Source: a virus. Taken from it: a DNA stretch of 42,106 nt. The number at the start of each line of letters is the position of its first letter. Position 1 is the first letter of the stretch. Under the pieces are notes generated by a model. The model searched no databases, was not told the DNA's origin, and worked only from the letters and a program-made list of their open reading frames with translations. Made by a program: the position numbers and the translations under genes. The stretch covers positions 1 through 42,106 of IMG/VR virus record IMGVR_UViG_3300017987_000161; one strand, 5' to 3'. Positions 208 through 26,732 of this stretch are shown here, in pieces.

Positions 208-223
208 AGAGCTCTGGATTAAA

Positions 224-255
224 AACTAATAAAGATAGATATAATATTATTAGTT
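224..255. promoter_or_regulatory. 9-bp inverted repeat before the first complete gene (possible operator)
   Basis: AACTAATAA (224-232) and TTATTAGTT (247-255) are perfect inverted copies 14 bases apart, lying between the left-edge gene and the gene at 302. The spacer contains a TATA-like GATATAAT. The outer hexamers AACTAA and TTAGTT recur at almost the same separation upstream of the DNA polymerase (6357-6387), which suggests one regulator binding both. The region is very AT-rich, so chance is a real alternative. Confidence 0.35.
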
Positions 256-301
256 ATAATTAAAGAGGTTTAAATTAATTTAAAATTGGAGACGAATAAA
301 A

Positions 302-517
302 ATGGGTCGATATTCAAAAGATAGAAAAGAATTTAATAATAAATTAGTTGGGGGCTCTAATAACGATTGTTTGGGCTTGGGTTTATTTATCCAGGCTTTA
401 ATAATAGCTATTGGAACTTTAATATATTTATTCTATAAATATCATAAAACAATAAAAAAGAATAATCCCGATAATAATAAACCTTATACATGGATGGGAG
501 TATATACAAAAAAGTAA
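302..517 (+). CDS. small membrane protein, unknown function
   Basis: This 71-residue protein has a polar N-terminus, one hydrophobic segment (about residues 24-44, LGLGLFIQALIIAIGTLIYLF) and a basic, Asn-rich tail, so it probably spans the membrane once. A GGAG ribosome binding site lies about ten bases before the ATG. It stands alone between the inverted repeat at 224-255 and the repeat-rich gap that follows. I recognise no family. The tail ends against a run of short aaaatgtc repeats, so its last codons may belong to repeat-derived sequence. Confidence 0.5.
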   Translation: MGRYSKDRKEFNNKLVGGSNNDCLGLGLFIQALIIAIGTLIYLFYKYHKTIKKNNPDNNKPYTWMGVYTKK

Positions 518-906
518 AATGTCAAAATGTAAAAATGTCAAAAAGTATATTATGCTAAAATATAAAAATGCTATATTGATAGAATGTCGAAATGCTACAA
601 TGGCAGAATGACAGATTCACAGATTCCGACAAAATGGGCAAATTCCGACAAAATGGCAGGTACGACAAAACGACAAAACGGACAAAACGACAAAACGAAC
701 AAAATGGACCGAAAAGTATATAAAGAACGGAAGACAAATATAATAGTAAGGTGGGTAGTGACAAAACTATGACAAAGGGAATAAACCCCCTAGCAGTATA
801 AGATAGGGTTAGAGTCCGTGACTCACCGTCTGTAAGATTGTTAACACTTATGGATTTCCCAAAACAAAACGGACTCACCAAATAACAAAATATGGGGAAA
901 TAAAAA
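518..906. repeat. gene-free, repeat-rich region (candidate origin or regulatory region)
   Basis: No convincing gene lies in these 389 bases; the open frames on both strands here are translations of repeats. Four layers are visible. Irregular repeats of aaaatgtc/aaaatgct run from 518 to about 610. ATTCCGACAAAATGG occurs twice, at 623-637 and 642-656. CGACAAAA-type units are packed in tandem over 663-706. A small GAGTC-CGT-GACTC hairpin lies near 811-823, with GACTCACC repeated near 818 and 870. Iterated short words in a gap between gene blocks are typical of replication origins or of sites bound cooperatively by a protein. This is the densest cluster of the CCGACAAA/CGACAAAA word in the window. 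Confidence 0.5.
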
Positions 907-1161
907 ATGAAATTGTTTAAATTAGACCGACAAATTAGTATAGTTTGTGAAGCTGAAAATACTAGATACGGATTTAGGCATATAGCACATTTATTTATTG
1001 GGTCCTACGAAATTGCAACAAGTAAAGCATGTTATCATAACAGAACATGGGAAGCATATCAATTTCAATCAGTAATAGAGGGAGTAATAAACAAACACTG
1101 GACCGACAAAAAAGACAGACAAAAATACTTAAAGAAATTGAGGGAGAACTATGGAAAGTAA
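907..1161 (+). CDS. conserved-looking phage protein, unknown function
   Basis: This 84-residue protein begins MKLFKLDRQISIVCEAE and contains NRTWEAYQFQSVIEGVINKH. That Trp/Glu/Tyr helical signature reminds me of small phage proteins of unknown role (from memory, not checked). It has no signal peptide, membrane segment or metal motif. A GGGG stretch ten bases before the ATG is a weak ribosome binding site. Its last bases overlap the next small gene, whose ATG is at 1151, so the two are probably co-translated. Two CCGACAAA words lie inside it (927-934 and 1103-1110), in two different reading frames. Confidence 0.6.
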   Translation: MKLFKLDRQISIVCEAENTRYGFRHIAHLFIGSYEIATSKACYHNRTWEAYQFQSVIEGVINKHWTDKKDRQKYLKKLRENYGK

Positions 1162-1264
1162 TATCCCATTTAGGACCGACAAATTAGGAGTAATAAATAA
1201 AAAGAAAAAATATAAGAGGGTCCCCGACAAAATAGAAATAGTTGTGGACTTTCAGATTTGGTGA
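1151..1264 (+). CDS. small basic protein, unknown
   Basis: This 37-residue frame begins MESNIPFRTDKLGV and is rich in lysine. The ATG overlaps the end of the preceding gene by 11 bases and a GGGAG stands six bases upstream. The stop lies in the start region of the next gene. I recognise no family. Two CCGACAAA words occur here, encoding Thr-Asp-Lys and Pro-Asp-Lys. The support is overlap and ribosome binding site only, so it may be a chance frame. Confidence 0.4.
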   Translation: MESNIPFRTDKLGVINKKKKYKRVPDKIEIVVDFQIW

Positions 1265-1269
1265 AAAAT

Positions 1270-1554
1270 ATGAAAAGTTTAGAGGAAATTAAAAAAGAAA
1301 ATGCGGAGGCTGATGTTAAATCTGACAAAACAAAAATTATTCTCAGAGATGGGATTACTGTTACCAGAGGAGTATCTAATTCAGCTATAATTATAGAAAC
1401 AGAACATGGGAAAGCTAAATTAACTGCTCAAATACTAGATACAATAGTCAGAACAAACAACAAGCTTGTCAAAGGAAGAAAATACAAAGATTTATTTACT
1501 GCTGAAGATAGAATAATATCAAAAGCTCTTATAAGAGCATTGTGGGGCGATTAA
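1270..1554 (+). CDS. hypothetical protein
   Basis: This 94-residue protein starts MKSLEEIKKENAEAD. A charged helical N-terminus is followed by a segment with beta character (IILRDGITVTRG, SAIIIETEHG) and a helical end (AEDRIISKALIRALWGD). I chose ATG 1270 because GGTGA sits five bases before it; in-frame TTG 1258 and GTG 1261 lie upstream without better support. The stop runs directly into the next ATG (TAAATG). No family recognised. Confidence 0.55.
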   Translation: MKSLEEIKKENAEADVKSDKTKIILRDGITVTRGVSNSAIIIETEHGKAKLTAQILDTIVRTNNKLVKGRKYKDLFTAEDRIISKALIRALWGD

Positions 1555-1701
1555 ATGGATTTCAAAATAACAGGTAGAATAAGCTCCAAGGCTGAGGCTG
1601 AGGAAATACAACAAATAGTAAAAGTACATTTAATAGGGCAAAGAGCGAAGGACCTGGGATTTTTAGCCTGGACCGAAGATTTATGCAAGGAGGACAAATA
1701 G
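1555..1701 (+). CDS. small hypothetical protein
   Basis: This 48-residue frame starts at the ATG immediately after the preceding TAA and reads MDFKITGRISSKAEAEEIQQ. A short strand is followed by an amphipathic helix. Translation probably depends on coupling to the gene before it, because there is no clear ribosome binding site. No family recognised. Confidence 0.45.
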   Translation: MDFKITGRISSKAEAEEIQQIVKVHLIGQRAKDLGFLAWTEDLCKEDK

Positions 1702-1744
1702 ATGGGTAGAAGTACGGAGTAAGTGTTTATACAAAGGTGAAAAA

Positions 1745-1909
1745 ATGAAACTGACAAAAGAAAAGCTGGAACAAATATTAGAAGCTGTTTGGGACTGGAC
1801 CGACTATGATATAGAGACTTGTGGCTATCAAGATTACGACATTATGCCCTCAATGACCAACAAAGACCGACAAAAAGTGAGGCAAGAGCTTGAACAGATT
1901 TTGTCTTGA
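1745..1909 (+). CDS. small acidic hypothetical protein
   Basis: This 54-residue protein starts MKLTKEKLEQILEAVWDWTDYD and ends in a charged helix (KDRQKVRQELEQILS). A good AGGTGA ribosome binding site precedes the ATG by about five bases. Tryptophan and acidic residues are concentrated in the middle. It contains one CCGACAAA word read as Asp-Arg-Gln. The stop overlaps the left arm of the long inverted repeat that follows. No family recognised. Confidence 0.5.
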   Translation: MKLTKEKLEQILEAVWDWTDYDIETCGYQDYDIMPSMTNKDRQKVRQELEQILS

Positions 1910-2025
1910 GCAGAACATCCCCGTCAGCGTCAAAGCGACTTACTATACTACACCCCCTACATTATTATTTTACAAAACTCTCAGAATGCTCTTACGAGTG
2001 ATTACGCTCATGGAGTCGTTCTGCT
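1909..2025 (+). ncRNA. structured intergenic segment, possible small RNA or leader
   Basis: AGCAGAAC (1909-1916) and GTTCTGCT (2018-2025) are perfect inverted 8-mers enclosing the gap before the zinc-ribbon gene at 2038. Inside the enclosure, GAGTG-ATTA-CGCTC (about 1996-2009) can form a second hairpin with one G-T pair. The gap has more G and C than its surroundings and no open frame of note. It could be a folded leader of the next gene, a small RNA or a remnant. The pairing is seen directly; the RNA itself is inference. Confidence 0.3.
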
Positions 2026-2037
2026 TTGGGGGGCAAA

Positions 2038-2262
2038 ATGTATAAACCGAAGCGATGCAACAGATGTGGAAAAGTGTTTAGACCAAACAATGGGAAGCAA
2101 AAATACTGTTACACTTGTAGCCCAATTGTGGCTCAATTACGAAAAAATGAGTGGCAAAAAAATGAACGTAAAAACAAAAATGTTAGAAATACCTCACATT
2201 TAAAAACGTGGCGAAATGAGGTTTTTTGGCATAAAAAGTTTAAAAATTGTAACAAAAAATGA
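2038..2262 (+). CDS. zinc-ribbon protein with basic tail
   Basis: This 74-residue protein starts MYKPKRCNRCGKVF. Two CxxC knuckles (CNRC and CYTC) separated by about 16 residues form a probable zinc ribbon, followed by a strongly basic, Asn/Lys-rich tail (KNEWQKNERKNKN). That combination suggests nucleic-acid binding. ATG 2038 is preferred over an in-frame TTG at 2026 because the GGGGGGC run upstream suits it. It is the first of many small zinc-ribbon proteins in both plus arms. Confidence 0.65.
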   Translation: MYKPKRCNRCGKVFRPNNGKQKYCYTCSPIVAQLRKNEWQKNERKNKNVRNTSHLKTWRNEVFWHKKFKNCNKK

Positions 2263-2292
2263 TATATAAAAATATATATAGGAAGATATATA

Positions 2293-2541
2293 ATGACAAA
2301 GCTATGGTATGAAATAAAAAAGAGGCTGGGAAATGCAGAAATTGATGATTATTGTGGATTATGCAGAAACTCTTTAACATTATTGGAGGCTCGTGGTATT
2401 AAGAAAAATGAAGTCCTTATTATAGCTCCAAGTGTTAACTGTAGTGGTCGTATAACTCATTATCATATAGGTACAGCATTGCGTAAAAATGTTATAGGCT
2501 CAAAAATATATAAAGATTTGGAGGAAGATAAAAATGATTGA
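2293..2541 (+). CDS. hypothetical protein with four cysteines
   Basis: This 82-residue protein starts MTKLWYEIKKRLGN. Cysteines in DYCGLCRNS form one CxxC, and a further Cys (SVNCSGR) plus two His (THYHIG) could complete a metal site. AGGAAG lies about eight bases before the ATG, after an extremely AT-rich run that may include a TATA-like promoter element. Its end overlaps the start of the SWIM gene by eight bases. No family recognised. Confidence 0.55.
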   Translation: MTKLWYEIKKRLGNAEIDDYCGLCRNSLTLLEARGIKKNEVLIIAPSVNCSGRITHYHIGTALRKNVIGSKIYKDLEEDKND

Positions 2542-2719
2542 AATAGTAGAAATAAAAGAGTGGAATTTCAAAGTCAGAAGTTCTAACAAACGCAAGTATT
2601 ACGAAGTGGTTAAGAGGCGAGATGGCGAGAGTTTGTTTTGTAGCTGTCCCTCTTTTAAATACAATGAAGGTGAATGTAAGCATATTAAGGCTGTCAAGGT
2701 GATGACAAATGGAAGTTAA
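2534..2719 (+). CDS. SWIM-type zinc finger protein
   Basis: This 61-residue protein starts MIEIVEIKEWNFKVRSS. Residues 36-51 read FCSCPSFKYNEGECKH, the CxC...CxH pattern of SWIM zinc fingers, which bind DNA or protein in transposases, Snf2 helicases and Rad51-associated factors. Almost nothing but the finger is present. A GGAGG lies about ten bases before the ATG and the gene overlaps both neighbours, so it is probably co-translated with the pentapeptide gene that follows. It may be an adaptor for another protein (inference). Confidence 0.7.
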   Translation: MIEIVEIKEWNFKVRSSNKRKYYEVVKRRDGESLFCSCPSFKYNEGECKHIKAVKVMTNGS

Positions 2720-3599
2720 TGGGTATATGATAAAACCAAAAGCCGATTTACGTGGAGCCGATTTACGGAAAGCCAATTTACGGAAAGCCAATTTACAAGA
2801 AGCCAATTTACGTGGAGCCAATTTACAGGGAGCCAATTTACAGGGAGCCAATTTACAGGAAGCCGATTTATGGAGAACCGATTTACAGAGAGCCGATTTA
2901 CAGGGAGCCAATTTATGGGGAGCCAATTTACAGGAAGCCGATTTACAGGAAGCCAATTTACAGAGAGCCGATTTATGGGGAGCCAATTTACAGGGAGCCG
3001 ATTTACAGGGAGCCAATTTACAGGAAGCCAATATACAGGTAGCCGATTTATGGAAAGCCAATTTAAAGGAAGCCAATTTACAGGTAGCCGATTTACGGAA
3101 AGCCAATTTAAAGGAAGCCAATTTACAGGGAGCCGATTTACAGGGAGCCAATTTACAGAGAGCCAATTTACAGGAAGCCGATTTACAGGGAGCCAATTTA
3201 CAGGAAGCCAATTTACAGGAAGCCAAATTATGGAAAGCCAATTTACAGGGAGCCGATTTACAGGAAGCCAATTTACAGGGAGCCAATTTACAGGAAGCCA
3301 ATTTACAGGGAGCCAATTTACAGAGAGCCGATTTATGGGGAGCCAATTTACAGGAAGCCGATTTACAGGGAGCCAATTTACGGAAAGCCAATTTAAAGGG
3401 AGCCAATTTAGACTATTCAGTATTCCCTCTTTGGTGCGGGAGTTTTAACATTATAGATGATGGAAGACTGGTTAAACAACTCTTGGGGCACATTGCCAGA
3501 ATAAAATGCACGGACAAACAGATACAAAAATGGGTAAACAAAATACCAAAGAAATATAAGAATGATATATGTAAGCGACATGATATAGAGGAAGTATAA
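2709..3599 (+). CDS. pentapeptide-repeat protein
   Basis: This 296-residue protein has about 45 consecutive A(D/N)LxxANL-type pentapeptides from residue 12 to about 234. They should fold as a right-handed quadrilateral beta-helix. A 60-residue C-terminal domain (FPLWCGSFNIIDDGRLVKQLL and onward) follows, of a kind I have seen attached to phage pentapeptide proteins. Some family members mimic DNA and protect gyrase (Qnr, MfpA), but nothing here identifies the target. GGTGA precedes ATG 2709; ATGs at 2718 and 2727 are alternatives. The repeats are nearly identical at DNA level, implying recent expansion. Confidence 0.85.
   Translation: MEVNGYMIKPKADLRGADLRKANLRKANLQEANLRGANLQGANLQGANLQEADLWRTDLQRADLQGANLWGANLQEADLQEANLQRADLWGANLQGADLQGANLQEANIQVADLWKANLKEANLQVADLRKANLKEANLQGADLQGANLQRANLQEADLQGANLQEANLQEAKLWKANLQGADLQEANLQGANLQEANLQGANLQRADLWGANLQEADLQGANLRKANLKGANLDYSVFPLWCGSFNIIDDGRLVKQLLGHIARIKCTDKQIQKWVNKIPKKYKNDICKRHDIEEV
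2742..3410 (+). repeat. 15-bp tandem repeat array inside the pentapeptide gene
   Basis: The unit is GCCAATTTACAGGGA with small variants, about 45 copies in a row. Because the unit has no stop in several frames, long spurious open frames exist on both strands across it. Variation is mostly at the aspartate/asparagine codon (GAT/AAT) and at the two bases before GCC. Such arrays expand and contract by slippage, so copy number probably differs between related viruses and the assembled length may be unreliable. Confidence 0.9.
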
Positions 3600-3601
3600 A
3601 T

Positions 3602-3889
3602 ATGAAGAGAATTAAGAACAGGAATAAGACTGGTATTTGGATGAGGATTTCAGGCTTCTTTGAACATGAGCCAGAAGATATAATTTATAGACAAAAGGCA
3701 GTGAAGGAGGTCCAGCGACAAAAGAAGGATAGGAAGAGACAGGAACAAAAGCTTATTAATATGATAAGAGAGGCTCACAGATTAATTCCAACTGGCAAAA
3801 AGAAGGACCCAAAATGGCTTAGAAATCAACGACAAATCCAACGTGGTTTTGATATTGCTGACAAATGGAGTAAAAAAGATGACAAATAG
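3602..3889 (+). CDS. small basic hypothetical protein
   Basis: This 95-residue protein starts MKRIKNRNKTGIWMR, is very rich in Lys, Arg and Gln and looks mostly helical (KAVKEVQRQKKDRKRQEQKL), with no membrane segment or metal motif. It starts two bases after the pentapeptide gene stops, with GAGGAAG upstream, and overlaps the next gene by 11 bases. The composition suggests a nucleic-acid or acidic-protein partner; the function is unknown. Confidence 0.55.
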   Translation: MKRIKNRNKTGIWMRISGFFEHEPEDIIYRQKAVKEVQRQKKDRKRQEQKLINMIREAHRLIPTGKKKDPKWLRNQRQIQRGFDIADKWSKKDDK

Positions 3890-4175
3890 ATATGAAATTC
3901 GTAAACATATAGGCTGTGGTGGAGACTTGACCTTTGAAAAAGAGGTAGTCGAAAACAAGATTTTAAACAAAAGAGCAGTAGAGAAATTTGGGGCAAAAGC
4001 TAAGATAAAACAGGTTACAAAAAACATGTTTAGATGCAACAAATGTAGGGAGTTGGTGAATGTAGTTACATGCCCATCGTGGGAACAGTTTGTGCTTTGG
4101 GGCAAAATCAGAGTCAGCAAAAAACAATACTGGGAAATCAAAGAAAACAGGAAAAATGGAGCATTGAGGTATTAA
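3879..4175 (+). CDS. putative zinc-binding hypothetical protein
   Basis: This 98-residue protein starts MTNRYEIRKHIGCGGDL. A Cys near residue 13 and the later FRCNKC knuckle look like two halves of a treble-clef or zinc-ribbon site separated by a helix (EKFGAKAKIKQVTKN). A further Cys follows in TCPSW. ATG 3879 has GGAG eight bases upstream and overlaps the preceding stop. An upstream in-frame ATG at 3843 would overlap that gene much further. Function unknown. Confidence 0.55.
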   Translation: MTNRYEIRKHIGCGGDLTFEKEVVENKILNKRAVEKFGAKAKIKQVTKNMFRCNKCRELVNVVTCPSWEQFVLWGKIRVSKKQYWEIKENRKNGALRY

Positions 4176-4197
4176 TTATATAATAGGTGATAATGTT

Positions 4198-4449
4198 ATG
4201 AAAAAAGGTTTAAATACTATGACAGACAAAGTTACAACTGGAAAGAGGATTACTTGCTGGTTTTGTCACATTAATGGTCGAAATATATTGGACAAAGATG
4301 GTAAATGTAAACGCTGTGGGACCAACTTAAAGAAATATCCAATCAGAGACAAACATCCTTATCCCAATATGAAAAATTTAGATAGAGAGGTCCTGGGTCA
4401 TCGGGACAAATTTTATATCCCAGATGATAGCGACCAGAATAATTGGTGA
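4198..4449 (+). CDS. zinc-ribbon protein
   Basis: This 83-residue protein starts MKKGLNTMTDKVTTGKRITCWFCHING. CWFC and CKRC knuckles 15 residues apart form a probable zinc ribbon, followed by a polar tail with several Pro, His and Asp. AGGTGAT stands about nine bases before the first ATG; ATG 4219 is an alternative. The end overlaps the next gene's upstream region. GACAAA words occur repeatedly in it. Function unknown. Confidence 0.6.
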   Translation: MKKGLNTMTDKVTTGKRITCWFCHINGRNILDKDGKCKRCGTNLKKYPIRDKHPYPNMKNLDREVLGHRDKFYIPDDSDQNNW

Positions 4450-4453
4450 AAAT

Positions 4454-4780
4454 ATGAATCCACAAGAATTTAATAAGGTGCTCAAAACTCGGATAGAGCT
4501 GACAAAAAAAGTTCTAGCATATAAATCAGGTGAATATTCCACAAAAACCGACAAACTGCATAACTTTAAAAGAGCAGGACAGATGCAAAATTGTAGCTCA
4601 GCAAAAGCCTTAATAGGAATGTGGACCAAGCACATCGTTTCAATACTAGATATAGTAGATAACATAGAAAAAGATGACAGCTACCACCCATCCCCAGCCC
4701 TGTTAGAAGAAAAAATTGGGGATGCTATAAATTATTTAATATTGCTTGAAGCATTAATAAAGGAGAGATATGATAAATGA
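4454..4780 (+). CDS. MazG/DUF1599-like all-alpha protein
   Basis: This 108-residue, fully helical protein starts MNPQEFNKVLKTRIELTKK. The pattern SGEYSTKTDKLHNFKRAG, then a Lys-His helix (MWTKHIVSILDIVD) and EEKIGDAINYLILLEALIKER resembles the DUF1599/nucleotide-modification-associated group related to MazG NTP pyrophosphatases. In those the EExxD helix binds Mg and the protein may hydrolyse or handle nucleotides. GGTGA four to five bases before ATG 4454 decides the start. It overlaps the next gene by ATGA. The family match is from memory of the pattern and is moderate. Confidence 0.5.
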   Translation: MNPQEFNKVLKTRIELTKKVLAYKSGEYSTKTDKLHNFKRAGQMQNCSSAKALIGMWTKHIVSILDIVDNIEKDDSYHPSPALLEEKIGDAINYLILLEALIKERYDK

Positions 4781-4935
4781 AATATTCTAAAAGTCTACAA
4801 ATATATAGATTAAGAATTTCAGTAACCGACAAACAGAGCTTTGAAGAGTGCAATAAGGAAATTCTGGCTAGGCTGGAAAATCATCCAGAGCTGGACCAGG
4901 AAGAGGTCGACAAAATAAAGAGGGAGATATTATGA
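4777..4935 (+). CDS. small hypothetical protein, first of a tandem paralogous pair
   Basis: This 52-residue protein starts MKYSKSLQIYRLRISV. Its second half QSFEECNKEILARLENHPEL aligns with SFNDCDKEIKKELDKHPAV in the next gene: same Ser-Phe-x-x-Cys, Lys-Glu-Ile and His-Pro positions. The gene overlaps both neighbours by ATGA and has AGGAGA upstream. A short beta segment followed by an amphipathic helix is predicted. A CCGACAAA word encodes Thr-Asp-Lys. Function unknown. Confidence 0.6.
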   Translation: MKYSKSLQIYRLRISVTDKQSFEECNKEILARLENHPELDQEEVDKIKREIL

Positions 4936-5102
4936 AGTATAATAAAGAGATTGTGTTAGCCCTGGCTCCATATAAGACGGTTAAACTTGGGGTATCTGAA
5001 GCTGATAGTTTCAATGATTGTGACAAAGAGATAAAAAAGGAGCTCGACAAACACCCAGCAGTTAAAGAGCTGAATGCAGAGGACATAAAAAAGGTGCTGT
5101 AA
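4932..5102 (+). CDS. small hypothetical protein, second of a tandem paralogous pair
   Basis: This 56-residue protein starts MKYNKEIVLALAPYKTVKL. It shares the first four-residue pattern MKY(S/N)K and the C-terminal helix SFNDCDKEIKKELDKHPAV with the gene just before it, so the two most likely arose by duplication and diverged. The ATG overlaps the previous stop (ATGA) and GGGAG lies upstream. Its stop overlaps the next ATG (TAATG). Function unknown. Confidence 0.6.
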   Translation: MKYNKEIVLALAPYKTVKLGVSEADSFNDCDKEIKKELDKHPAVKELNAEDIKKVL

Positions 5103-5281
5103 TGAAAGAAGAGGATTTAAAGAAAACAAATAAGGCTTTTGATTCCATGATTAGAGATTTTATACTGTCTGCCAATAAATGCAAACCTGTTATGCCCCTT
5201 GTGGCTCAAAGTTTAGAGCTTACAGTAGAACTAATAAAAACCTATAAAGAGGCTTTCAATGGAATCAATAAAAAAAGCTAA
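5102..5281 (+). CDS. small helical hypothetical protein
   Basis: This 59-residue protein starts MKEEDLKKTNKAFDSMIRDF and looks wholly helical (VAQSLELTVELIKTYKEAFNG). The start shares one base with the previous stop (TAATG) and its end overlaps the nucleotidyltransferase-like gene by 23 bases, so all three are likely translated together. No metal motif or membrane segment. Function unknown. Confidence 0.55.
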   Translation: MKEEDLKKTNKAFDSMIRDFILSANKCKPVMPLVAQSLELTVELIKTYKEAFNGINKKS

Positions 5282-5705
5282 TGCAGTATTATTAATAAAT
5301 AGTCAGCCCCCACATTTAGGAGAATTGTTACAGTTTATACAACAATTGAATAAGTATGAGTTTATATATGTATGTATTACAGGTAATATTGCAGTAATTG
5401 CTCTGGACCACGTACTAGCTATTTGGAGAAATATATTAGCCCCATATAGCAACAAAAGTGCAGTAATGTTTTTTCAAAAAGATATATATAAATCTAGCAG
5501 AGAAGATTTCCCTGGAGCATTTAAAGATTGTGTGTGGTTAACTGCTGATAGGGCAACATATGTACATCTTTCTACATTACAAGTAAATGTGGAGCTTATT
5601 CCAAGAGCTATGGGGTATCGAGGCACCTTCTTACGAGTAGCTTTCCGACAAAGTAAAGCTTTGGATTATTTAGAAGCAAATTATGGGGGTCAAATAAAGA
5701 GGTAA
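5259..5705 (+). CDS. degenerate nucleotidyltransferase-like protein (HxGH superfamily)
   Basis: This 148-residue protein starts MESIKKANAVLLINSQPPHLGELLQF. NSQPPHLGELL sits where cytidylyl/adenylyltransferases of the NMNAT/PPAT superfamily carry GRFQPxHxGH. The first His is kept but the second is replaced by Glu. KYEFIYVCITGN fits the second Rossmann strand, and GYRGTFLR sits where a family ISSTxIR motif is expected, again altered. It may act on a different substrate or be non-catalytic. GAGG lies ten bases before the ATG. It lies just upstream of the OB-fold and polymerase genes. Confidence 0.45.
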   Translation: MESIKKANAVLLINSQPPHLGELLQFIQQLNKYEFIYVCITGNIAVIALDHVLAIWRNILAPYSNKSAVMFFQKDIYKSSREDFPGAFKDCVWLTADRATYVHLSTLQVNVELIPRAMGYRGTFLRVAFRQSKALDYLEANYGGQIKR

Positions 5706-5758
5706 TAAAATGGAAATGAATTTATTAATAATGAAAGAAATTTAAGAGGTAGAAAAAT

Positions 5759-6127
5759 ATGCCAACATTTGAAACAAATACGACAGAAGATGAGGATGTT
5801 TTGTTTGCGACCTTTGGTAAACTAAAAGCAGGTCAGGACAAAAGTAAATCTGTCCTCATAAAAGAGGGAGAGAGTTTAATAGGAGTCGTTATAGATGTTC
5901 AAGATTCCCCGACATATAAAAAAGTCTATCGTCTTAAAGTAAAAGGCGAGGACAAACCAGTAGTTGTACTAGGTAAGACTGACCTTAACAACAAGATGGG
6001 CTATGGTACCAAGAAGGCTCAAAAAGTTGTTCAGGTTAATGACCTTATACAGATTACTTATCTCGGACAAAAGAAAACTCAAAAAGGTCGCCCATTCTAT
6101 AGCTTTACTGTCGGTATTGCTAAATAG
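5759..6127 (+). CDS. OB-fold protein, candidate single-stranded DNA-binding protein
   Basis: This 122-residue protein starts MPTFETNTTEDEDVLFATFG. After an acidic lead, residues 33-118 form five or six predicted strands (LIGVVIDVQDSP, VYRLKVKGE, PVVVLGKTDL, LIQITYLGQ, FYSFTVGIA) with exposed Lys and Tyr, as in an OB fold. An acidic tip, the small size and the position directly before the DNA polymerase support a role in replication. No family was confirmed. AGAGGT lies about ten bases before the ATG. A helicase loader or polymerase clamp-like factor is an alternative. Confidence 0.45.
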   Translation: MPTFETNTTEDEDVLFATFGKLKAGQDKSKSVLIKEGESLIGVVIDVQDSPTYKKVYRLKVKGEDKPVVVLGKTDLNNKMGYGTKKAQKVVQVNDLIQITYLGQKKTQKGRPFYSFTVGIAK

Positions 6128-6134
6128 GGGCAAT

Positions 6135-6201
6135 AGAGTCCGACACTCTCCTAAAAAGGCACCCCGAATTTCATCAACAGTTCGACTCTGTTAGGGGTGC
6201 C
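6135..6201 (+). ncRNA. tRNA-like minihelix (acceptor plus T-arm) with adjacent hairpin
   Basis: GGCACCCC (6158-6165) pairs perfectly with GGGGTGCC (6194-6201). Inside, AACAG (6176-6180) and CTGTT (6188-6192) close a 7-base loop TTCGACT, which matches the tRNA T-loop consensus. Only about ten bases separate the outer strand from this arm, so D and anticodon arms are absent. A second hairpin AGAGT-CCGAC-ACTCT lies just upstream (6135-6149). It could be a tRNA remnant, an attachment-site relic, a tRNA mimic or a strong mRNA 3-prime structure after the OB-fold gene. The pairing is seen directly; the interpretation is open. Confidence 0.4.
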
Positions 6202-6225
6202 ATCTAATTTACTTAGGTGAAGATT

Positions 6226-6306
6226 ATGAATAATTTAAGAAGCCAGATAATCGAGCACCAATTTATCTGTTATCGAGAATTTTGGCACAGGCATCATGCA
6301 ATGTAA
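6226..6306 (+). CDS. possible 26-residue peptide between OB-fold gene and polymerase
   Basis: ATG at 6226 has AGGTGA seven bases upstream and opens a frame of 26 codons beginning MNNLRSQIIEHQFICYREFW, ending in TAA. The ribosome binding site is one of the better ones in the arm, but the peptide resembles nothing I know. It could be a leader peptide, a short functional peptide or chance. Confidence 0.3.
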   Translation: MNNLRSQIIEHQFICYREFWHRHHAM

Positions 6307-6315
6307 TCGCATTTG

Positions 6316-6355
6316 TATGCACCATAATTAACAACTTTGTTAACTTTGGTGTATG
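6316..6355. promoter_or_regulatory. nested inverted repeat upstream of the polymerase
   Basis: TATGCACCA (6316-6324) pairs with TGGTGTATG (6347-6355) through nine pairs including two G-T, and nested inside, TTAACAA (6328-6334) pairs exactly with TTGTTAA (6337-6343). It may be a hairpin in the leader RNA, a terminator for upstream transcription or a protein-binding site. Its right arm overlaps the left arm of the next inverted repeat, so the two structures may exclude each other. Confidence 0.45.
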
Positions 6356-6407
6356 TAACTAAGATTTAAATAGTAGAAGAATTAGTTACATAGCAAAGGT
6401 TTAAATA
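6352..6407 (+). promoter_or_regulatory. putative polymerase promoter with operator-like inverted repeat around a TATA-like box
   Basis: TATGTAACTAA (6352-6362) and TTAGTTACATA (6382-6392) are perfect 11-bp inverted copies. Between them lies TTTAAATA (6365-6372), the form of an archaeal TATA box; a second TTTAAATA at 6400-6407 is preceded by AAAGG, as in a BRE. A protein bound to the repeat would cover the box, a usual design for repression. The AACTAA/TTAGTT core with a 19-20 base gap also occurs at 224-255. If the host is bacterial the TATA reading fails but the operator reading remains possible. Confidence 0.45.
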
Positions 6408-6424
6408 TAAAGAGGTATTGCCAT

Positions 6425-9082
6425 ATGAAATTACCAAAAAAAGGAGCCCTTGTAGCAATTGACACTGAAACTAAATCACTGACCGACAAAACGATGGTCG
6501 GGTTTAGTGTTGCGTTTGGAAACAGGTCAGAGTATTTTCCTGTCAGGGACAAAATACTACCTAATATTTCTATAGATAATGCTAAAGAAATACTGTCCCA
6601 TGTATTACAAAATTGTCATGTAGTGTTCCATAATTCCAGTTTTGATTTGCCAGTTATACATAAATTTGGTGTCGAGATTCCCGACAAACTGGATATAGAT
6701 GACACTGTGATTATGGCAAATCTAGTAAACGAGAATATGCTACATGGGTTAAAAAAATTAACAAAAAAGTATTTCGATTATCAAATGACAGAGTTGAAAG
6801 AGCTTACAGGTAGTGGGAAAAACAGAAAATCTTTTGATGAAGTGGAAGATATTAAAAAAATCAATTATGCCAAGGATGATGCAAAGTATACGTTAAAACT
6901 TTATTATAAGCTTAAATCTTTACTTGACAAAGATGAGGCATCTAAAAAAGTTTATGAAGAGATTGAACGCCCCTTGTTGCAAATTATTGCTTTGATGCAC
7001 ATACATGGAGTAAGAGTAAATGTAGAGAAAGTTCTTGAGATAGGTAAGATGTGCTTTGATAAAATGAATGGGGCTGAAGAAAAATTACGCATACTTATGG
7101 GACAAAAGATTAATTTTAATAGCACCAAGCAACTTAGGGAATATTTTATAGGAGAGAGAAGGCTCCCAGTATTAAAGAAAACACCAAAAGGAGAGCCCTC
7201 AGTAGATAAAGAAGTATTAGAGCAATATGCAGAAATGGATGGGAGTGCAAAATTATTATTAGAATATAGAAAATATAGTAAGATTTATTCAACTTTTATT
7301 CCAGCCATGACCCCGACAAATTGGGATGAAAAGACCATGACTGGCTTAATTTATACATCATTTAATCAAGCTGGGACAGTAAGTGGGAGATTTTCAAGCA
7401 GTAGACCAAATATGCAGAATATTCCACGTAAGGATGAGATAGGACTTAGAGCAGTAGTAATTCCAGATGAGGGAGATATTCTTATTGGTGCTGATTATTC
7501 ACAAATAGAACTTCGTGTACTTGCTCATTTTTCTCAGGACCAAAATCTTTTATATGCTTATAATAACAAAAAAGATATTCACCAACAAACAGCAGATGCA
7601 CTTGGACTTGATAGATATGATGCTAAATGTTTTCACCCATTTACAGAAGTGTTAACTCCTAATGGATGGAAATGTATGTGCCATTTAAATACAGAGGATA
7701 AAATTCTACAAGCGTACCCATACTCTAATTTTGATGTACGTTTTGAATGGGTAAAACCTAAACTTAAACTAAAAAAACACCCAAGTAAAACATTAATTCA
7801 TTTAAAGAATGAGGGCGTTGATTTACGTGTAACACCTGAACATAGGATGCTTTATTACTCTAATTATGGTTATCCTCATATCACTAAACCAAAATGTTTT
7901 AATTCAGTAAGATATTGGATGAATAGTGGTATATTACATAATTGTATAAGTTGTGATGAGAATTTGCTAAGATTAGCAATAGCAACTCAAGGAGATGGCT
8001 CTTATAAAAGTTTTGGAATACAATTTGGATTTAGCAAAAAAAGAAAGGTTAACAGATTAAAGAAACTATTGAAAAATTTTGATGGTTTATATACTATTAC
8101 TATAGATAAGAATAAAATTGTGTGGTTTAATCTATGGAAAGAGTTGGCTGATAAAATTAAACCTTATCTAGATAATAAAAAACTTTCATGGAGCATGTTA
8201 AATTATTCAATAAAATATAAGTACATTATTTTAGAAGAGGCAAAATATTGGGATAGCCACTGTAGGAAAAATTGGCAAATGTTTAGGTATAGCTCTAAAG
8301 AAGAACAAAATGTAGATGTGCTACAAGCTCTTGCTGCTACAAGTAATTTTAAAACTAGGAAAGTTAGAAAAAAGGATGGCATGTTTGATTTGACAATTAG
8401 AAAAAATAATAAATCCAGAGGAGGGAATATTAAAATAACAAATGAAAGATATACAAAAAAAGTCGCTTTTTTATCAGTTCCTTCAACTTATGTTTTAGTT
8501 AGAGATGGGGGTATACCTATTATTACTGGGCAAACTATTAACTTTGGTTTGGTTTATGGAATGGGAGCAAAAACTCTAGGTAAAAAAATTAATAAATCTT
8601 ATGATGATGCTCAGAAATATATTGATGCTTATTTCAGAACTTATCCAATGGTGCAATCATTTTGGAAAAAAGCAGAGAGGGATTTCCGTACACTTGGGTA
8701 CGTACAAACTTTTTTTGGCAGAAAAAGACGAAGAACACCATACTTTTTCACTAAGGATGATTATGAGCAGGGTGGAGAAGTTAGAAGTGCAATCAATTCA
8801 GTTATTCAAGGTAGTGCAGCAGATTTAATGAAGATAGCTATGAAAAATATGGCACCAAAATTAAAACCACTTGGAGCTAAACTCATATTAACAGTCCACG
8901 ATGAAATACTTGTTAGTTGCCCTATAAAAAATGCTGTGAAAGCTAAAAAAATCATTGAGTCAGAGATGATTAAAGCTGGGAAGGATTTATCTGTTTTAAT
9001 TGAAGTTGATTGTAAATTTGGCAGAACTTGGGCTGAGGCTCATGGAGAAGGGATTAAATTGGAGGAGATGAAATGCAACTAA
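6425..9082 (+). CDS. polA: family A DNA polymerase with 3-5 exonuclease, interrupted by an intein
   Basis: This 885-residue precursor replicates the viral genome. Residues 9-160 are a DEDDy proofreading exonuclease (D13 and E15 in IDTETKSL, FD at 73-74, YxxxD at 148-152). The palm motif DYSQIELR begins at D357, the O-helix reads RYDAK (397-401) then TINFGLVYG (from 704), and motif C HDE is at 825-827. Residues 402-703 are an intein placed between the essential O-helix Lys and the following Thr. No 5-3 nuclease domain is present; the spliced enzyme would be about 583 residues. The O-helix Phe, not Tyr, predicts ddNTP discrimination. AGAGG lies upstream of ATG 6425. Confidence 0.95.
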   Translation: MKLPKKGALVAIDTETKSLTDKTMVGFSVAFGNRSEYFPVRDKILPNISIDNAKEILSHVLQNCHVVFHNSSFDLPVIHKFGVEIPDKLDIDDTVIMANLVNENMLHGLKKLTKKYFDYQMTELKELTGSGKNRKSFDEVEDIKKINYAKDDAKYTLKLYYKLKSLLDKDEASKKVYEEIERPLLQIIALMHIHGVRVNVEKVLEIGKMCFDKMNGAEEKLRILMGQKINFNSTKQLREYFIGERRLPVLKKTPKGEPSVDKEVLEQYAEMDGSAKLLLEYRKYSKIYSTFIPAMTPTNWDEKTMTGLIYTSFNQAGTVSGRFSSSRPNMQNIPRKDEIGLRAVVIPDEGDILIGADYSQIELRVLAHFSQDQNLLYAYNNKKDIHQQTADALGLDRYDAKCFHPFTEVLTPNGWKCMCHLNTEDKILQAYPYSNFDVRFEWVKPKLKLKKHPSKTLIHLKNEGVDLRVTPEHRMLYYSNYGYPHITKPKCFNSVRYWMNSGILHNCISCDENLLRLAIATQGDGSYKSFGIQFGFSKKRKVNRLKKLLKNFDGLYTITIDKNKIVWFNLWKELADKIKPYLDNKKLSWSMLNYSIKYKYIILEEAKYWDSHCRKNWQMFRYSSKEEQNVDVLQALAATSNFKTRKVRKKDGMFDLTIRKNNKSRGGNIKITNERYTKKVAFLSVPSTYVLVRDGGIPIITGQTINFGLVYGMGAKTLGKKINKSYDDAQKYIDAYFRTYPMVQSFWKKAERDFRTLGYVQTFFGRKRRRTPYFFTKDDYEQGGEVRSAINSVIQGSAADLMKIAMKNMAPKLKPLGAKLILTVHDEILVSCPIKNAVKAKKIIESEMIKAGKDLSVLIEVDCKFGRTWAEAHGEGIKLEEMKCN
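7628..8533 (+). other. intein with LAGLIDADG-like endonuclease, inside the DNA polymerase
   Basis: This 302-residue insertion starts with Cys (CFHPFTEVLTPNGWK, splicing block A). Block B is VTPEHRM. A degenerate LAGLIDADG motif is seen in LLRLAIATQGDGSYKSF, followed by a basic helix, and the insertion ends VPSTYVLVRDGGIPIITGQ before extein Thr. The last residue is Gln and the penultimate Gly, not the common His-Asn, a variant reported for some inteins. It cuts the nucleotide-binding O-helix next to its catalytic Lys, so the polymerase should be inactive until splicing. Whether the endonuclease is active cannot be told; only one clear LAGLIDADG-type motif is seen. Confidence 0.88.
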
Positions 9083-9369
9083 ACTTGATAATAGATTTAC
9101 TATTTACTGCTGGTATTATAAGTTTCTTGTGGTCTTGTGTTAGACAGCTACAAAAGATACTTAGGACAAAACAGACAAATGGGATTTCTCTCACACATTA
9201 TTATATTAAAATAATTGCAATCCTATGTATGATGATTGGGTATATACTTTCTAATCTTCCTATATCATTGGGAGTTAGTGCTGTTGAACTCAGTATTACG
9301 CTTATTTCAGTTGAAAGAATATGTAAGTATAGGTGGGGAGGCTTCAAATGGGGGAAACTATTAAGATGA
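9073..9369 (+). CDS. SemiSWEET/PQ-loop-like three-helix membrane protein
   Basis: This 98-residue protein starts MQLNLIIDLLFTAGIISFLW. Three hydrophobic segments (about residues 4-22, 43-62, 66-85) and the link RQLQKILRTKQTNGISLTHY after the first helix resemble the PQ-loop (PQxxxxxxTKSTxGIS) of SemiSWEET sugar transporters and related lipid-linked PQ-loop proteins, with the Pro replaced. Such units dimerise to form a sugar or metabolite pore. It overlaps the polymerase by ten bases and heads the island of nucleotide and glycan genes, where importing or exporting a small metabolite would make sense (inference). Confidence 0.55.
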   Translation: MQLNLIIDLLFTAGIISFLWSCVRQLQKILRTKQTNGISLTHYYIKIIAILCMMIGYILSNLPISLGVSAVELSITLISVERICKYRWGGFKWGKLLR

Positions 9370-9827
9370 AGACATTTTATTTAGCTCATAATTTTTATGA
9401 TAGAAAAAGATTCAGAAAATGGGAGTTAAGAATTGAAGCCAAGTATAGCATTAATCTTGATAACCCATTTTATGATAACGATAGAAATGATATTCGAGCT
9501 TTAGATAAATTTAAAGATAGGAGTAAAGAGCAAAAAGAATACTTTAAGAAACGAAATACTACTGAAATGATACAAAAAATAGTTGAAGGCGATTTAGATA
9601 TGATTCGTAAAAGCGATGGGATTATTACAGTATTAGATTCCCCTAGTTTTGGGACTCCTATGGAAATCTTCTTTGCTGCAAGAGTTCTTAAAATTCCTGT
9701 ATATATTATCACTAAGAAATTTGCTTATCATCCATGGATTCGTAAATTTGCTACAAGGATATTTAGAACTAGAATAGAATTTGAATCCTTTATTAAAAAA
9801 GAATTTGGATTGAGACACGGACTATGA
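9366..9827 (+). CDS. nucleoside 2-deoxyribosyltransferase-like protein
   Basis: This 153-residue protein starts MKTFYLAHNFYDRKRFRKWE. Family features are the first strand with a following DR, INLDNPFYDNDRNDI, the aspartate-rich middle EGDLDMIRKSDGIITVLDSPS, and GTPMEIFFAARVLKIPVYIIT. In the last of these the Glu after GTPM corresponds to the catalytic nucleophile of nucleoside/nucleotide deoxyribosyltransferases, which swap or remove bases on deoxynucleosides. It may therefore remodel nucleotide pools or make an unusual base precursor. ATG 9366 is chosen for the GGGGGA upstream; ATGs at 9333 and 9348 would lie deeper in the previous gene. Confidence 0.65.
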   Translation: MKTFYLAHNFYDRKRFRKWELRIEAKYSINLDNPFYDNDRNDIRALDKFKDRSKEQKEYFKKRNTTEMIQKIVEGDLDMIRKSDGIITVLDSPSFGTPMEIFFAARVLKIPVYIITKKFAYHPWIRKFATRIFRTRIEFESFIKKEFGLRHGL

Positions 9828-10030
9828 AAAGAAATATAATTATTTGGTCTGAAGATGGTGAATTATATAGAGCTGTTTATTCAAAATACTTTGAAACAAT
9901 TACAGTTAGAAAGATAGCAGGAAATGAGTTAGTCATTAGAAAAGCAAATGTGTCTTCAATGGAATGGAATATATTTAAACTGAGGATATTGAAATGGAAG
10001 AAACCTGTGCAAGATGTGGGAGACAACTAA
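9824..10030 (+). CDS. hypothetical protein
   Basis: This 68-residue protein starts MKRNIIIWSEDGELYRAVY and is likely a small beta-rich fold (strands in IIIWSED, YRAVYSKY, ETITVRKIAG) with a basic tail. It overlaps the preceding stop by ATGA and the next zinc-ribbon gene by 37 bases. Nothing identifies a function. Confidence 0.5.
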   Translation: MKRNIIIWSEDGELYRAVYSKYFETITVRKIAGNELVIRKANVSSMEWNIFKLRILKWKKPVQDVGDN

Positions 10031-10158
10031 CTATACATGAGGTAGTTAGGAATGCTTATCACTTTAAAATATTAAAAGAAGATAGTATACTTAGATTTTG
10101 TAATTATTGTTGGTGTATTATCTATGAAGATAAGGAGGAAAAATCATGCCATATTTAA
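9994..10158 (+). CDS. small zinc-ribbon protein
   Basis: This 54-residue protein starts MEETCARCGRQLTIHEVV. CARC and CNYC knuckles, about 28 residues apart, form a probable zinc site, with an extra WC and a late Cys-His. GAGGAT lies before the ATG. The gene overlaps both neighbours in other frames, which lowers certainty, but the paired CxxC motifs argue that it is real. It belongs to the large group of small zinc-ribbon proteins in this genome. Confidence 0.55.
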   Translation: MEETCARCGRQLTIHEVVRNAYHFKILKEDSILRFCNYCWCIIYEDKEEKSCHI

Positions 10159-10394
10159 AAGAAGAAAAAGATAGAAAAACCTTGGATTCTATAATTGAGA
10201 TTCACGGTAAATTATTGACAAAACCTGGGGCTATTAATTACTTGTTATTTAAATTAGCTAAAGTTTCATGTAATAGGTATCAAAACTACAGGAATTTTAT
10301 AGGCGAGTTAGAATGTTGCAAGCAAGAGATTTATAGGCGACAAACTGGACCATATGAAGATACTAAAATTTATGAGAACGGAGACGTTGAATAA
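10146..10394 (+). CDS. conserved phage protein, DUF6899-like
   Basis: This 82-residue protein starts MPYLKEEKDRKTLDSIIE. The pattern MPYxKxEDR, GxxNYLxxKL, then IGELECCKQEIYRR and PYEDxKIxENGDV matches my memory of a widely conserved small phage and bacterial protein (DUF6899) of unknown role. Its ending with an Asn-Gly-Asp turn is characteristic. The AAGGAGG site before ATG 10146 is strong. It lies between small zinc-ribbon genes at the head of the LicD cluster. Confidence 0.65.
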   Translation: MPYLKEEKDRKTLDSIIEIHGKLLTKPGAINYLLFKLAKVSCNRYQNYRNFIGELECCKQEIYRRQTGPYEDTKIYENGDVE

Positions 10395-10396
10395 AA

Positions 10397-10507
10397 ATGA
10401 ACTGCCCCAAATGTGGTAAATTTATGAGCAAAGCAGCTTGTGGTGAGTTTGTTTGCAAATGTGGAGCTCATTTAGTAAGGTCAGGAAATAAGTTATATGA
10501 GGATTAA
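10397..10507 (+). CDS. tiny zinc-ribbon protein
   Basis: This 36-residue protein starts MNCPKCGKFMSKAACGEFVC. CPKC at residues 3-6 and CKC near residue 21 form a minimal zinc ribbon with almost nothing else. The end overlaps the start region of LicD, whose ribosome binding site GAGGAT is inside this gene. Small size limits confidence, but the double CPKCG-type knuckle is unlikely by chance. Confidence 0.55.
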   Translation: MNCPKCGKFMSKAACGEFVCKCGAHLVRSGNKLYED

Positions 10508-10508
10508 A

Positions 10509-11099
10509 ATGGTAGAGCATAAATGGATAGAAGAATCATTAAAAGCATTTGCTAGGGTAATGAAGAAACATAAGATACCATTTTGGTTAGAATATGGTAC
10601 TCAACTTGGAGCAGTTAGAGAGGGCAGAATTATTCCCTATGATTATGATGGAGATATAGGCGTTATGCTCAGCTCTGTCAATAAAATGAAGGATTTAAAA
10701 GAGGATTTTGAAGCTGAAGAAATAATGATGGCATATCAACCAAATCATATTTTTATTAATTATAAAGTTAATGATAGGGAATGGCTGGCAACTGTAGATG
10801 TTTATACTTTTACTGTAAAAAAGCATAAAGGAAAAAAGTGGCTGGTAAGAATTGAGAATGGGAAGGAGTTTGATGTAAGGTCCCCATTTGAGTATTATGA
10901 AAAATTAAAAGCAATATATTTTTTAGGTGAAATATTTTTTATTCCTTGGATGGCTAGAGAAGCCCTTGAATTTGCATATGGAAAGGAATGGAAAACTCCT
11001 ATTAAGAAGCCAGGTGTTCAAATAATGATTGGTAAACCAACCGATAAGCAGCTTAATCAAATGGGTAGAACACACCATAAGAAATTGGAGGACCTATGA
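10509..11099 (+). CDS. LicD family protein (phosphocholine/phospho-sugar transferase type)
   Basis: This 196-residue protein starts MVEHKWIEESLKAFARVM. LEYGTQLGAVREGRIIPYD followed by YDGDIGV is the defining LicD signature: a polymerase-beta-like nucleotidyltransferase fold with Gly, Arg and a cluster of metal-binding Asp. Known relatives move phosphocholine or other phospho-groups onto sugars of cell-surface glycans. GAGGATTAAA before ATG 10509 matches the capsid gene's leader; an in-frame ATG at 10497 is an alternative. ATGA overlap with the cytidylyltransferase suggests that enzyme supplies its CDP-activated donor (inference). Confidence 0.82.
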   Translation: MVEHKWIEESLKAFARVMKKHKIPFWLEYGTQLGAVREGRIIPYDYDGDIGVMLSSVNKMKDLKEDFEAEEIMMAYQPNHIFINYKVNDREWLATVDVYTFTVKKHKGKKWLVRIENGKEFDVRSPFEYYEKLKAIYFLGEIFFIPWMAREALEFAYGKEWKTPIKKPGVQIMIGKPTDKQLNQMGRTHHKKLEDL

Positions 11100-11488
11100 T
11101 AAGAGGAATTATATTTGGATGTTGGGATTTATTTCATGTTGGTCATCTTAGAGCACTTCTTGCAGCAAGTAAACAATGTGATGTTTTATATATCGGGATT
11201 TTTTCAGATGAGGTTATAAAAGACTATAAAGGTCATTTTCCTATTATAAGTTATTTAGATAGATATTTAATTATTGCTAATTTATCATTACATTCAAGAA
11301 TTATTCCGTTTGGTATGAATCATAGGAGTAAAATCAGTCTTTCTGAATATCATAAAGTATTTGTATCTGATAAGTTAAGAAGGTATGCTATAATTCCTGA
11401 TGATTATGGGGGAGAAATAGTACAGTTACCTTATGATAAATCAACATCTACAACAAAAATAAAGGAGAAGATTAAAAATGAATCCTAG
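11096..11488 (+). CDS. cytidylyltransferase (glycerol-3-phosphate/phosphocholine type)
   Basis: This 130-residue protein starts MIRGIIFGCWDLFHVGHLRAL. HVGH is the catalytic HxGH motif, followed by Rossmann strand CDVLYIGIFSD, the DRYLIIANL segment and TSTTKIKEKI, the ISTTxI motif of TagD/GCT/CCT enzymes. These join CTP to glycerol phosphate, phosphocholine, phosphoethanolamine or a similar acid, releasing pyrophosphate. It overlaps LicD by ATGA, so both products are made in step. The typical family length (about 130 residues) is kept and all motifs are intact, so it should be active. The exact substrate is unknown. Confidence 0.88.
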   Translation: MIRGIIFGCWDLFHVGHLRALLAASKQCDVLYIGIFSDEVIKDYKGHFPIISYLDRYLIIANLSLHSRIIPFGMNHRSKISLSEYHKVFVSDKLRRYAIIPDDYGGEIVQLPYDKSTSTTKIKEKIKNES

Positions 11489-11744
11489 AGTACCTTTTAT
11501 ATGGAAAAGACCACATCATCTATATCATGGTCTTGCTATAGCAGGTTATAGTGTATTTATGTGGTGGTTATCTACTGATAATTGGATGGATTGTTCAATT
11601 GGAGTATGGCAAATATTTATCGGTATCGGCATATTTATAGCAGTAGACGATATTATTGAGCATTCTATTACTGGTAGCACTCCACTAAGGCTTTTATTTG
11701 ATAGAATAATATATCCATTCTTATTGAGGTTTCACCATGATTAA
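11478..11744 (+). CDS. membrane protein with two hydrophobic segments
   Basis: This 88-residue protein starts MNPRVPFIWKRPHHLYHGLA. Hydrophobic segments at about 18-31 and 42-56 (WQIFIGIGIFIAVDD) flank a short loop, and His-rich ends HHLYH and RFHHD are notable. AAGGAGAAG lies upstream and it overlaps both neighbours, placing it in the LicD-cytidylyltransferase-cupin unit. It may anchor the pathway at the membrane or handle a lipid-linked intermediate (inference). No family recognised. Confidence 0.55.
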   Translation: MNPRVPFIWKRPHHLYHGLAIAGYSVFMWWLSTDNWMDCSIGVWQIFIGIGIFIAVDDIIEHSITGSTPLRLLFDRIIYPFLLRFHHD

Positions 11745-12213
11745 AAAACACTATATATTTACAGCTTTAGATGCAGCAATGATGAATAAAGTTGGAAAGC
11801 AACAAAAGAGTCGATTTACAGATAAAGATTTTAATTACCAAACTGTAGTTTTTAAACCTTGGGGCTTTGAATATTTATTTATGAAGAATAAAGAATGTTG
11901 TGGTTGGATGCTTCATATTATCACAGGGTCAGGCACATCAGTTCATTGTCATGCAAAAAAGAAAACTATTGTAATGGTAATTAGTGGTAATTTATTATTA
12001 ACTACAATTTACGATAGGCAATTTTATAAACCAGGTGAAATAGTATTGATTGATGAAAAAGTATTTCATGCTATGGGAGCACCACTTGGCAATGTTCGAG
12101 TTATAGAACTTGAATATCCTTCCGACAAAACAGATGCAATAAGAGGAGTTGACTTTTGGAGCCGAAAAGGAAAACCATATGAAAGTAAGTGTAAAGTGAT
12201 AAAAAATGTATAG
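11737..12213 (+). CDS. cupin-domain protein of the sugar-phosphate type
   Basis: This 158-residue protein starts MIKKHYIFTALDAAMMNKVG. KPWGFEYLF is the PWGxE entry seen in mannose-6-phosphate-isomerase-like cupins. SVHCHAKKKTIVMVISGNL supplies the first metal-binding motif (HxHxxK) and VFHAMGAP supplies the last His. VIELEYPSDKTDAIRG and a YGRKGKxYE-like end are typical of cupins in surface-polysaccharide clusters. It may isomerise or bind a nucleotide-sugar or CDP-linked intermediate. It overlaps the preceding gene by eight bases and carries the last CCGACAAA word of the arm. Confidence 0.7.
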   Translation: MIKKHYIFTALDAAMMNKVGKQQKSRFTDKDFNYQTVVFKPWGFEYLFMKNKECCGWMLHIITGSGTSVHCHAKKKTIVMVISGNLLLTTIYDRQFYKPGEIVLIDEKVFHAMGAPLGNVRVIELEYPSDKTDAIRGVDFWSRKGKPYESKCKVIKNV

Positions 12214-20195: not shown

Positions 20196-20196
20196 A

Positions 20197-26730: not shown

Positions 26731-26732
26731 AA

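Follow-up and report, generated by a model that had tools for sequence, protein, structure and literature searches.

What function could be served by a short DNA word that recurs on one strand of a viral genome, mostly inside genes, and almost exclusively in one arm? The question is raised by CCGACAAA, an eight-base oligomer (core GACAAA, extended form CCGACAAAATGG) of the window analysed here, that is, the whole of IMG/VR virus record IMGVR_UViG_3300017987_000161, a complete record of 42,106 bases and 33% G+C from an uncultured phage, named G000 when it is compared with its relatives. Plus-strand genes occupy approximately 0-12.2 kb (the left, early arm) and 33.6-42.1 kb (the right arm), with the structural genes between them on the minus strand, and the strand skew of the window is strong. 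The answer favoured in the following, at a probability of about 0.4, is that CCGACAAA is a direction-specific recognition site for a phage replication or regulatory protein, most likely a PrimPol-superfamily 3 (SF3) helicase, and that a packed array of such sites near 0.6 kb acts as replication origin and/or early operator.

A one-strand word independent of protein coding

The word is found 15 times on the plus strand (starts at 626, 645, 927, 1103, 1176, 1224, 1867, 4548, 4826, 5645, 6483, 6681, 7313, 12122, and 20011) and never on the minus strand, all 15 positions being exactly those listed in a preliminary description of this DNA. Markov models of orders 1-3 predict 0.20, 0.23, and 1.01 copies for the whole window, and 0.09-1.86 for positions 1-12213, where 14 are observed; the excess is therefore upheld after Markov correction, and without the array copies 12 still remain in this arm versus 0.09-1.53 expected. 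Among the 280 anagrams of its letters, CCGACAAA ranks first (15 copies; mean 0.49; runner-up 7), and CCGACAA is followed by A in 15 of 15 cases. As had been claimed, the word is read in different frames and also occurs outside genes: plus-strand genes contain ten of the copies, which between them use all three frames, while four are intergenic and one (20011) is antisense in a minus-strand gene, 14 of the 15 being oriented with transcription. The core GACAAA, present 60 times on the plus and 22 times on the minus strand, had been described as dense in the left arm and rare in the right; the first half of this statement stands (51 copies at 1-12213 versus 7.9-17.6 expected), whereas the right arm, with five copies versus 4.8-6.2 expected, merely lacks enrichment and is not depleted. 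CCGACAAA itself is absent from the right arm, which is equally plus-strand, and is not in excess in the structural half. The absence of inverse copies is unremarkable, because the strand skew leaves for TTTGTCGG, the inverse of CCGACAAA, an expectation of only 0.03-0.09 copies in the left arm; the signal is an enrichment on one strand, not a depletion on the other.

The contribution of protein coding was assessed on the early genes up to 9.1 kb by synonymous shuffling, equivalent codons being permuted among equal positions 400 times. Nine copies of CCGACAAA are observed versus a mean of 0.5 and a maximum of 4, which is the largest excess among all 8-mers in this test, and GACAAA reaches 35 versus 12.3; in the right-arm and structural genes, counts match the shuffled expectation. 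Several one-letter variants in the core of CCGACAAA are absent. A second, very conservative shuffle, which keeps the codon-junction context and leaves few codons movable, yields a mean of 3.7 and a maximum of 8 in 300 shuffles, so that the observed nine was never reached. Thr-Asp-Lys is spelled ACC-GAC-AAA in four of five cases, ACC and GAC being minority codons. Codon usage and protein sequence or repeats are thus ruled out as the cause by the synonymous shuffles, and the difference between 9 and 0.5 places selection at the level of DNA or RNA; the preliminary statement that selection is on DNA and not on protein is borne out, by both kinds of shuffle, as far as protein is concerned, an RNA-level signal being a less likely alternative.

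Related records and the array near 0.6 kb

Related viral contigs were found via their terminase, capsid, polymerase, and single-stranded DNA-binding (SSB)-like proteins; the early arm is present in five records, mutually circularly permuted (the window, G001, G003, G004, and G009), which carry 15, 3, 6, 2, and 3 copies of CCGACAAA, respectively. Adding the single copy of the fragment G002 gives 30 copies, every one on the strand of the early genes (30:0). The abundance of the full 8-mer is not common to the close relatives. CGACAAA is found four times in G001 versus 0.6 expected, and the excess of GACAAA in G003 and G004 is weak (P 0.09 and 0.01). A count in related viruses had been proposed in the preliminary description, and the pattern indeed recurs independently, as the core GACAAA, in the distant relative G009, with a terminase identity of 55%; there, GACAAA is the top-ranking over-represented hexamer of its origin-proximal genes (33 versus 11.8), whereas its right arm holds 3 versus 3.9. 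Several of these GACAAA are spacers between the Shine-Dalgarno sequence and ATG; such spacers, considered as a cause, cover some of the copies, but the excess survives masking of the ribosome-binding sites (32 versus 11.3, maximum 21 in 300 shuffles). In the base preceding GACAAA, A is avoided, with mainly C in the window and mainly G in G009.

The most densely packed sites form a direct-repeat array on the plus strand (586-707), in which two CCGACAAAATGG at a distance of 19 bp (626 and 645) precede ACGACAAA/CGGACAAA units (662, 670, 679, and 687), candidate iterons of an origin or an early operator. These repeats, at 626-707, share a single orientation and are intergenic or within a 62-amino acid open reading frame (ORF); similar clusters are present in G001 and G003. 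The final 45 bp of the array align with noncoding DNA of G001 (TCCGACAAAATGACAAATCGACAAAATGAACCGAAAAGTATTTAAAG), while the flanking DNA does not, and the corresponding region of G003 contains four CCGACAAAATG and one CCGACAAAGT; the presence of a functional noncoding element at this place is thus probable. At its end lies a ACCGAAAAGTATATAAAG box (708-725, plus strand), kept in G001 as ACCGAAAAGTATTTAAAG, whose resemblance to an archaeal promoter (TFB recognition element, BRE, and TATA box) makes it a putative early promoter. Directly before the array, an A+T-rich stretch (505-600, 21% G+C) with ATGTCAAAATGT-like degenerate repeats is a candidate unwinding element; several other stretches are equally A+T-rich. 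A BLAST search of the array against phages and plasmids gave no match, the array being possibly masked as low-complexity sequence.

A scan of IMG/VR for two CCGACAAAATG within 30 bp retrieved 19 contigs, G003 among them. In ten (L037-L042, L044, L047, L050, and L052), both copies fall within a gene whose product is a replication initiator or a DnaD-like helicase loader, the PHROG test of these genes covering four representatives (DnaD-like helicase loader, O-like, or replication initiation protein), of which L041 was the weakest. With a spacing of mostly 23 bp, successive repeats cross reading frames and are translated differently (DKM, RQN, and others); in those initiator genes, too, selection is on DNA. 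Pairs of the shorter word CGACAAAATG were found in 59 contigs versus 16 for the reversed control; the control for the link with initiators, the reversed 10-mer, was read by eye, and its pairs fall mainly in repetitive coding sequence, with no recognisable initiator gene. The window array shares with the initiator-gene iterons the word CCGACAAAATG(G), the one-orientation direct repeats, the occurrence in several frames, and up to 16 consecutive identical bases. It differs in being intergenic or within the 62-amino acid ORF and irregularly spaced, instead of inside an initiator gene at ~23-bp spacing; moreover, the window has many dispersed copies, and no such initiator gene was found in it. In most initiator-array phages, few copies of the word lie outside the array, and the dispersed copies are therefore a feature of the lineage of the window and, in core form, of G009.

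As a separate observation, the helix-turn-helix (HTH) or initiator proteins of unrelated phages with CGACAAAATG pairs in the gene (L037-L042, L050, L085, L086, and L094) share an R-T-[ILV]-[EQ]-R recognition-helix motif; together, motif and word may possibly constitute a protein-DNA recognition rule.

Candidate binder and alternative roles

The leading candidate for the protein that recognises the sites is encoded at 35156-37366 on the plus strand, ~5 kb from the array on the circular map. This protein of 736 residues contains Prim-Pol (Pfam PF09250, E 2.3e-11), CHC2-like zinc-ribbon, D5_N, and DUF5906 (SF3 helicase) regions and matches the PHROG DNA primase. Its full-length model is poor (pLDDT 54), the best Foldseek match still being the PrimPol of pRN1 ORF904 (1rni, E 1.5e-4), and reliance was placed only on the separately modelled C-terminal domain (amino acids 641-736; 37076-37363, plus strand), for which an RFX-like winged-helix fold is predicted. 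The model of these 96 residues (pLDDT 85.7, pTM 0.75) matches the RFX DNA-binding domain (Foldseek 8zjr/1dp7) with a probability of 1.00 and a TM score by target of 0.75-0.80, at an E value of only 0.002-0.012. It is because of this predicted domain, and of the precedent of P4 alpha and ORF904, that the PrimPol-SF3 helicase is the most likely binder. The alpha protein of phage P4 binds origin repeats through a winged helix, and ORF904 too has a C-terminal winged helix (PMC4234260). P4 alpha likewise joins primase, SF3 helicase, and C-terminal winged helix in one protein acting on short asymmetric direct repeats (PMC4234260); its primase is, however, of the bacterial type, whereas that of the window is an archaeo-eukaryotic PrimPol, the repeat is different, and the window adds dispersed early-gene copies. 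ORF904, the replication protein of an archaeal plasmid, shares the PrimPol, the SF3 helicase, and the C-terminal winged helix, but the origin of pRN1 is a stem-loop without iterons (PMC4234260), unlike the window array.

Taken together, the array (~590-707), packed between the A+T-rich stretch and the promoter-like box, would be the replication origin and/or an early operator; the PrimPol-SF3 helicase would bind it through its C-terminal winged helix, unwind the DNA and prime synthesis, as P4 alpha does on its origin repeats. Single copies, oriented with transcription, would be kept through the origin-proximal early genes, thinning over about 10 kb, and might provide extra loading or priming sites, or control early transcription. 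The binding site for a viral protein, one of the roles originally proposed, is thus the favoured one, with the PrimPol-SF3 helicase as its putative ligand. Several observations weigh against such a reconstruction: the starts of the array repeats are 19, 17, 8, 9, and 8 bp apart, which is not a regular near-helical spacing; copies dispersed over several kilobases are atypical of iteron origins; G001, G003, and G004 keep the PrimPol and nevertheless show little or no dispersed enrichment; and none of the plausible early proteins in the window family has the RT[LIV]ER-type helix of the unrelated initiators, so that the binder here and those initiators need not be homologous.

Of the alternatives, the one that survives best, unlikely as it is, likens the sites to the stoperators of cluster A mycobacteriophages: a phage regulator bound to the asymmetric site would block the early promoter at the array and halt elongating RNA polymerase downstream. 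The array does lie at a promoter-like box, the downstream single copies are oriented with transcription within one transcription arm, and copies are somewhat nearer to gene ends than random (P about 0.05); in mycobacteriophage L5, site orientation correlates with transcription and its reversal abolishes repression (PMC9283540), a behaviour that fits the window. Cluster A phages also have many asymmetric sites oriented with transcription, but these are genome-wide and mostly in short intergenic gaps, whereas in the window the word is shorter, 10 of 15 copies lie within plus-strand genes of one arm, and the rest of the genome has almost none. No repressor was recognised by Pfam among the early proteins scanned, and in G009 GACAAA is also found on the upstream side of the array.

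Rather improbably, the sites might instead be start sites for the PrimPol on a single-stranded template, which agrees with the primase start site suggested initially and is compatible with the presence of a PrimPol gene in the phage: the minus strand reads 5'-TTTGTCGG-3', in which GTC(GG) would be recognised and the primer started on TTT, giving a one-strand polarity fading from the origin. The ORF904 PrimPol uses GTG. For that of NrS-1, the recognised sequences are 5'-TTTGGTTA-3' and GTG, with initiation at the base immediately upstream (PMC8718748). Both eight-base template signals, TTTGTCGG and TTTGGTTA, consist of TTTG and four further bases, the PrimPol of the window is similar to both of these enzymes, and the density of GACAAA in G000 falls with distance from the array (rho -0.72, P 0.012). 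However, the recognised letters differ, the template strand reading TTTGTCGG and neither GTG nor TTTGGTTA; if the array is the origin, leading-strand synthesis in the left arm would copy the minus strand and require few starts; in G009 the fall-off does not reach significance; and relatives with similar PrimPols lack the dispersed excess.

A comparably low probability attaches to an RNA-level motif, that is, GACAAA in early messages bound by a protein controlling elongation, decay, or translation, as could be suggested by the reading of all copies but one along plus-strand genes and by the GACAAA placed between Shine-Dalgarno and ATG in G009; yet the right arm, also transcribed from the plus strand, has no excess, masking of ribosome-binding sites leaves the excess intact, and the noncoding array resembles DNA iterons. 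The Chi-like or packaging-polarity role put forward initially is not supported, nor is a role as FtsK-orienting polar sequence (KOPS): polarised over-representation is not genome-wide, the word being confined to the origin-proximal early arm with no excess elsewhere, and the abundance of the full 8-mer is not seen in close relatives. Finally, it is highly improbable that base composition, codon bias, repeats of low complexity, or the recent acquisition of a block of genes produced the pattern incidentally, since the strong strand skew and the partly low-complexity sequence at 626-690, which speak for such an explanation, are opposed by the Markov and anagram controls, by both synonymous shuffles, which already contradict it, by the 12 left-arm copies outside the array, and by the independent repetition of the pattern in G009.

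Returning to recognition by a replication or regulatory protein, the sites can probably be classed with iteron or operator sites, of which they would be a variant, and would not represent a signal type of their own; what is unusual is the one-way series of copies across several kilobases of early genes. It is tentatively proposed that an initiator combining PrimPol, SF3 helicase, and winged helix employs a direction-coded site of 8 bp in two settings, as origin iterons and as one-orientation copies spread over several kilobases of neighbouring coding sequence. Such an origin-proximal polarity code, if true, would couple origin firing, priming, or early-transcription shut-off, and would evolve fast by synonymous and neighbouring substitutions. 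It is rare for a DNA-level signal concealed within genes to be recognised from sequence alone; CCGACAAA is statistically secure, its pattern recurs in a distant relative, and it points to a testable protein. Should the PrimPol-helicase be the binder, the replication proteins of PrimPol/D5 phages would gain a defined iteron origin, absent in pRN1, and the question would arise why initiator sites run one-way through early genes.

Individual sites and neighbouring features

Most of the dispersed coding copies have no conserved counterpart in the relatives, the polymerase site at 6483 being the exception. All dispersed copies are on the plus strand: two lie in gene 907-1161 (927-934 and 1103-1110) and two are intergenic (1176-1183 and 1224-1231); those in genes 1745-1909 (1867-1874) and 4424-4780 (4548-4555) are not conserved in the relatives. 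In gene 4777-4935 (4826-4833), GACAAA is kept at the same codons in G003, while in gene 5259-5705 (5645-5652) G001 and G003 read AGACAAA/AGGCAAA. Three copies fall in the DNA polymerase gene, at 6483-6490 (identical in G001), 6681-6688 (not conserved), and 7313-7320 (in the third reading frame). The copy at 12122-12129, in gene 11737-12213, reads TCTGACAAA in G001, and the isolated one at 20011-20018 is antisense in the minus-strand gene 17340-20231.

The family A DNA polymerase gene (ORF 6425-9082), for which no similar DNA was found among annotated phages, carries an intein-like insert at ~7600-8560 (amino acids about 400-705), with a PHROG match to a ribonucleotide reductase family over amino acids 516-705; the polymerases of G001, G003, and G004, of about 600 amino acids, are without it. 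The remaining top-scoring words (GCCGATTT, AGGGAGCC, GCCAATTT, and ATTTACAG) lie mostly inside the pentapeptide-repeat gene 2709-3599, also present in G001 and G003, whose repeats generate them, and were set aside. Between genes, at 1910-2040, an inverted repeat AGCAGAAC...GTTCTGCT, with TTTGGGGGGC after it, lies in noncoding sequence that is unusually rich in C and has no Rfam match; the only known RNA family in the window is tRNA. The contig end truncates a gene whose C-terminal portion is at 1-207; G009 has a fuller copy of it, with an internal CCGACAAA. Identity between G001 and the window is ~90% in most structural proteins and at 9-12 kb, and ~40-65% in much of the early left arm (1-7400), a distribution which suggests an exchange of the early/origin block.

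As to the host, the tRNA-Thr at 26732-26804 (minus strand), which lacks an encoded CCA, and the BRE/TATA-like box at 708-725 are hints of an archaeon. A pattern scan of GTDB genomes with the major capsid protein found no prophage or host; a third hint is a remote capsid/protease/adaptor match (L139) in one genome of the Haloferax phylum. Lastly, many A+T-rich viral contigs (L082, L084, L089, L100-L102, L108-L110, L116, L117, L120, and L121) carry closely spaced pairs of the palindromic TGCGACAAAATGTCGCA, which is probably a different operator or a mobile element.

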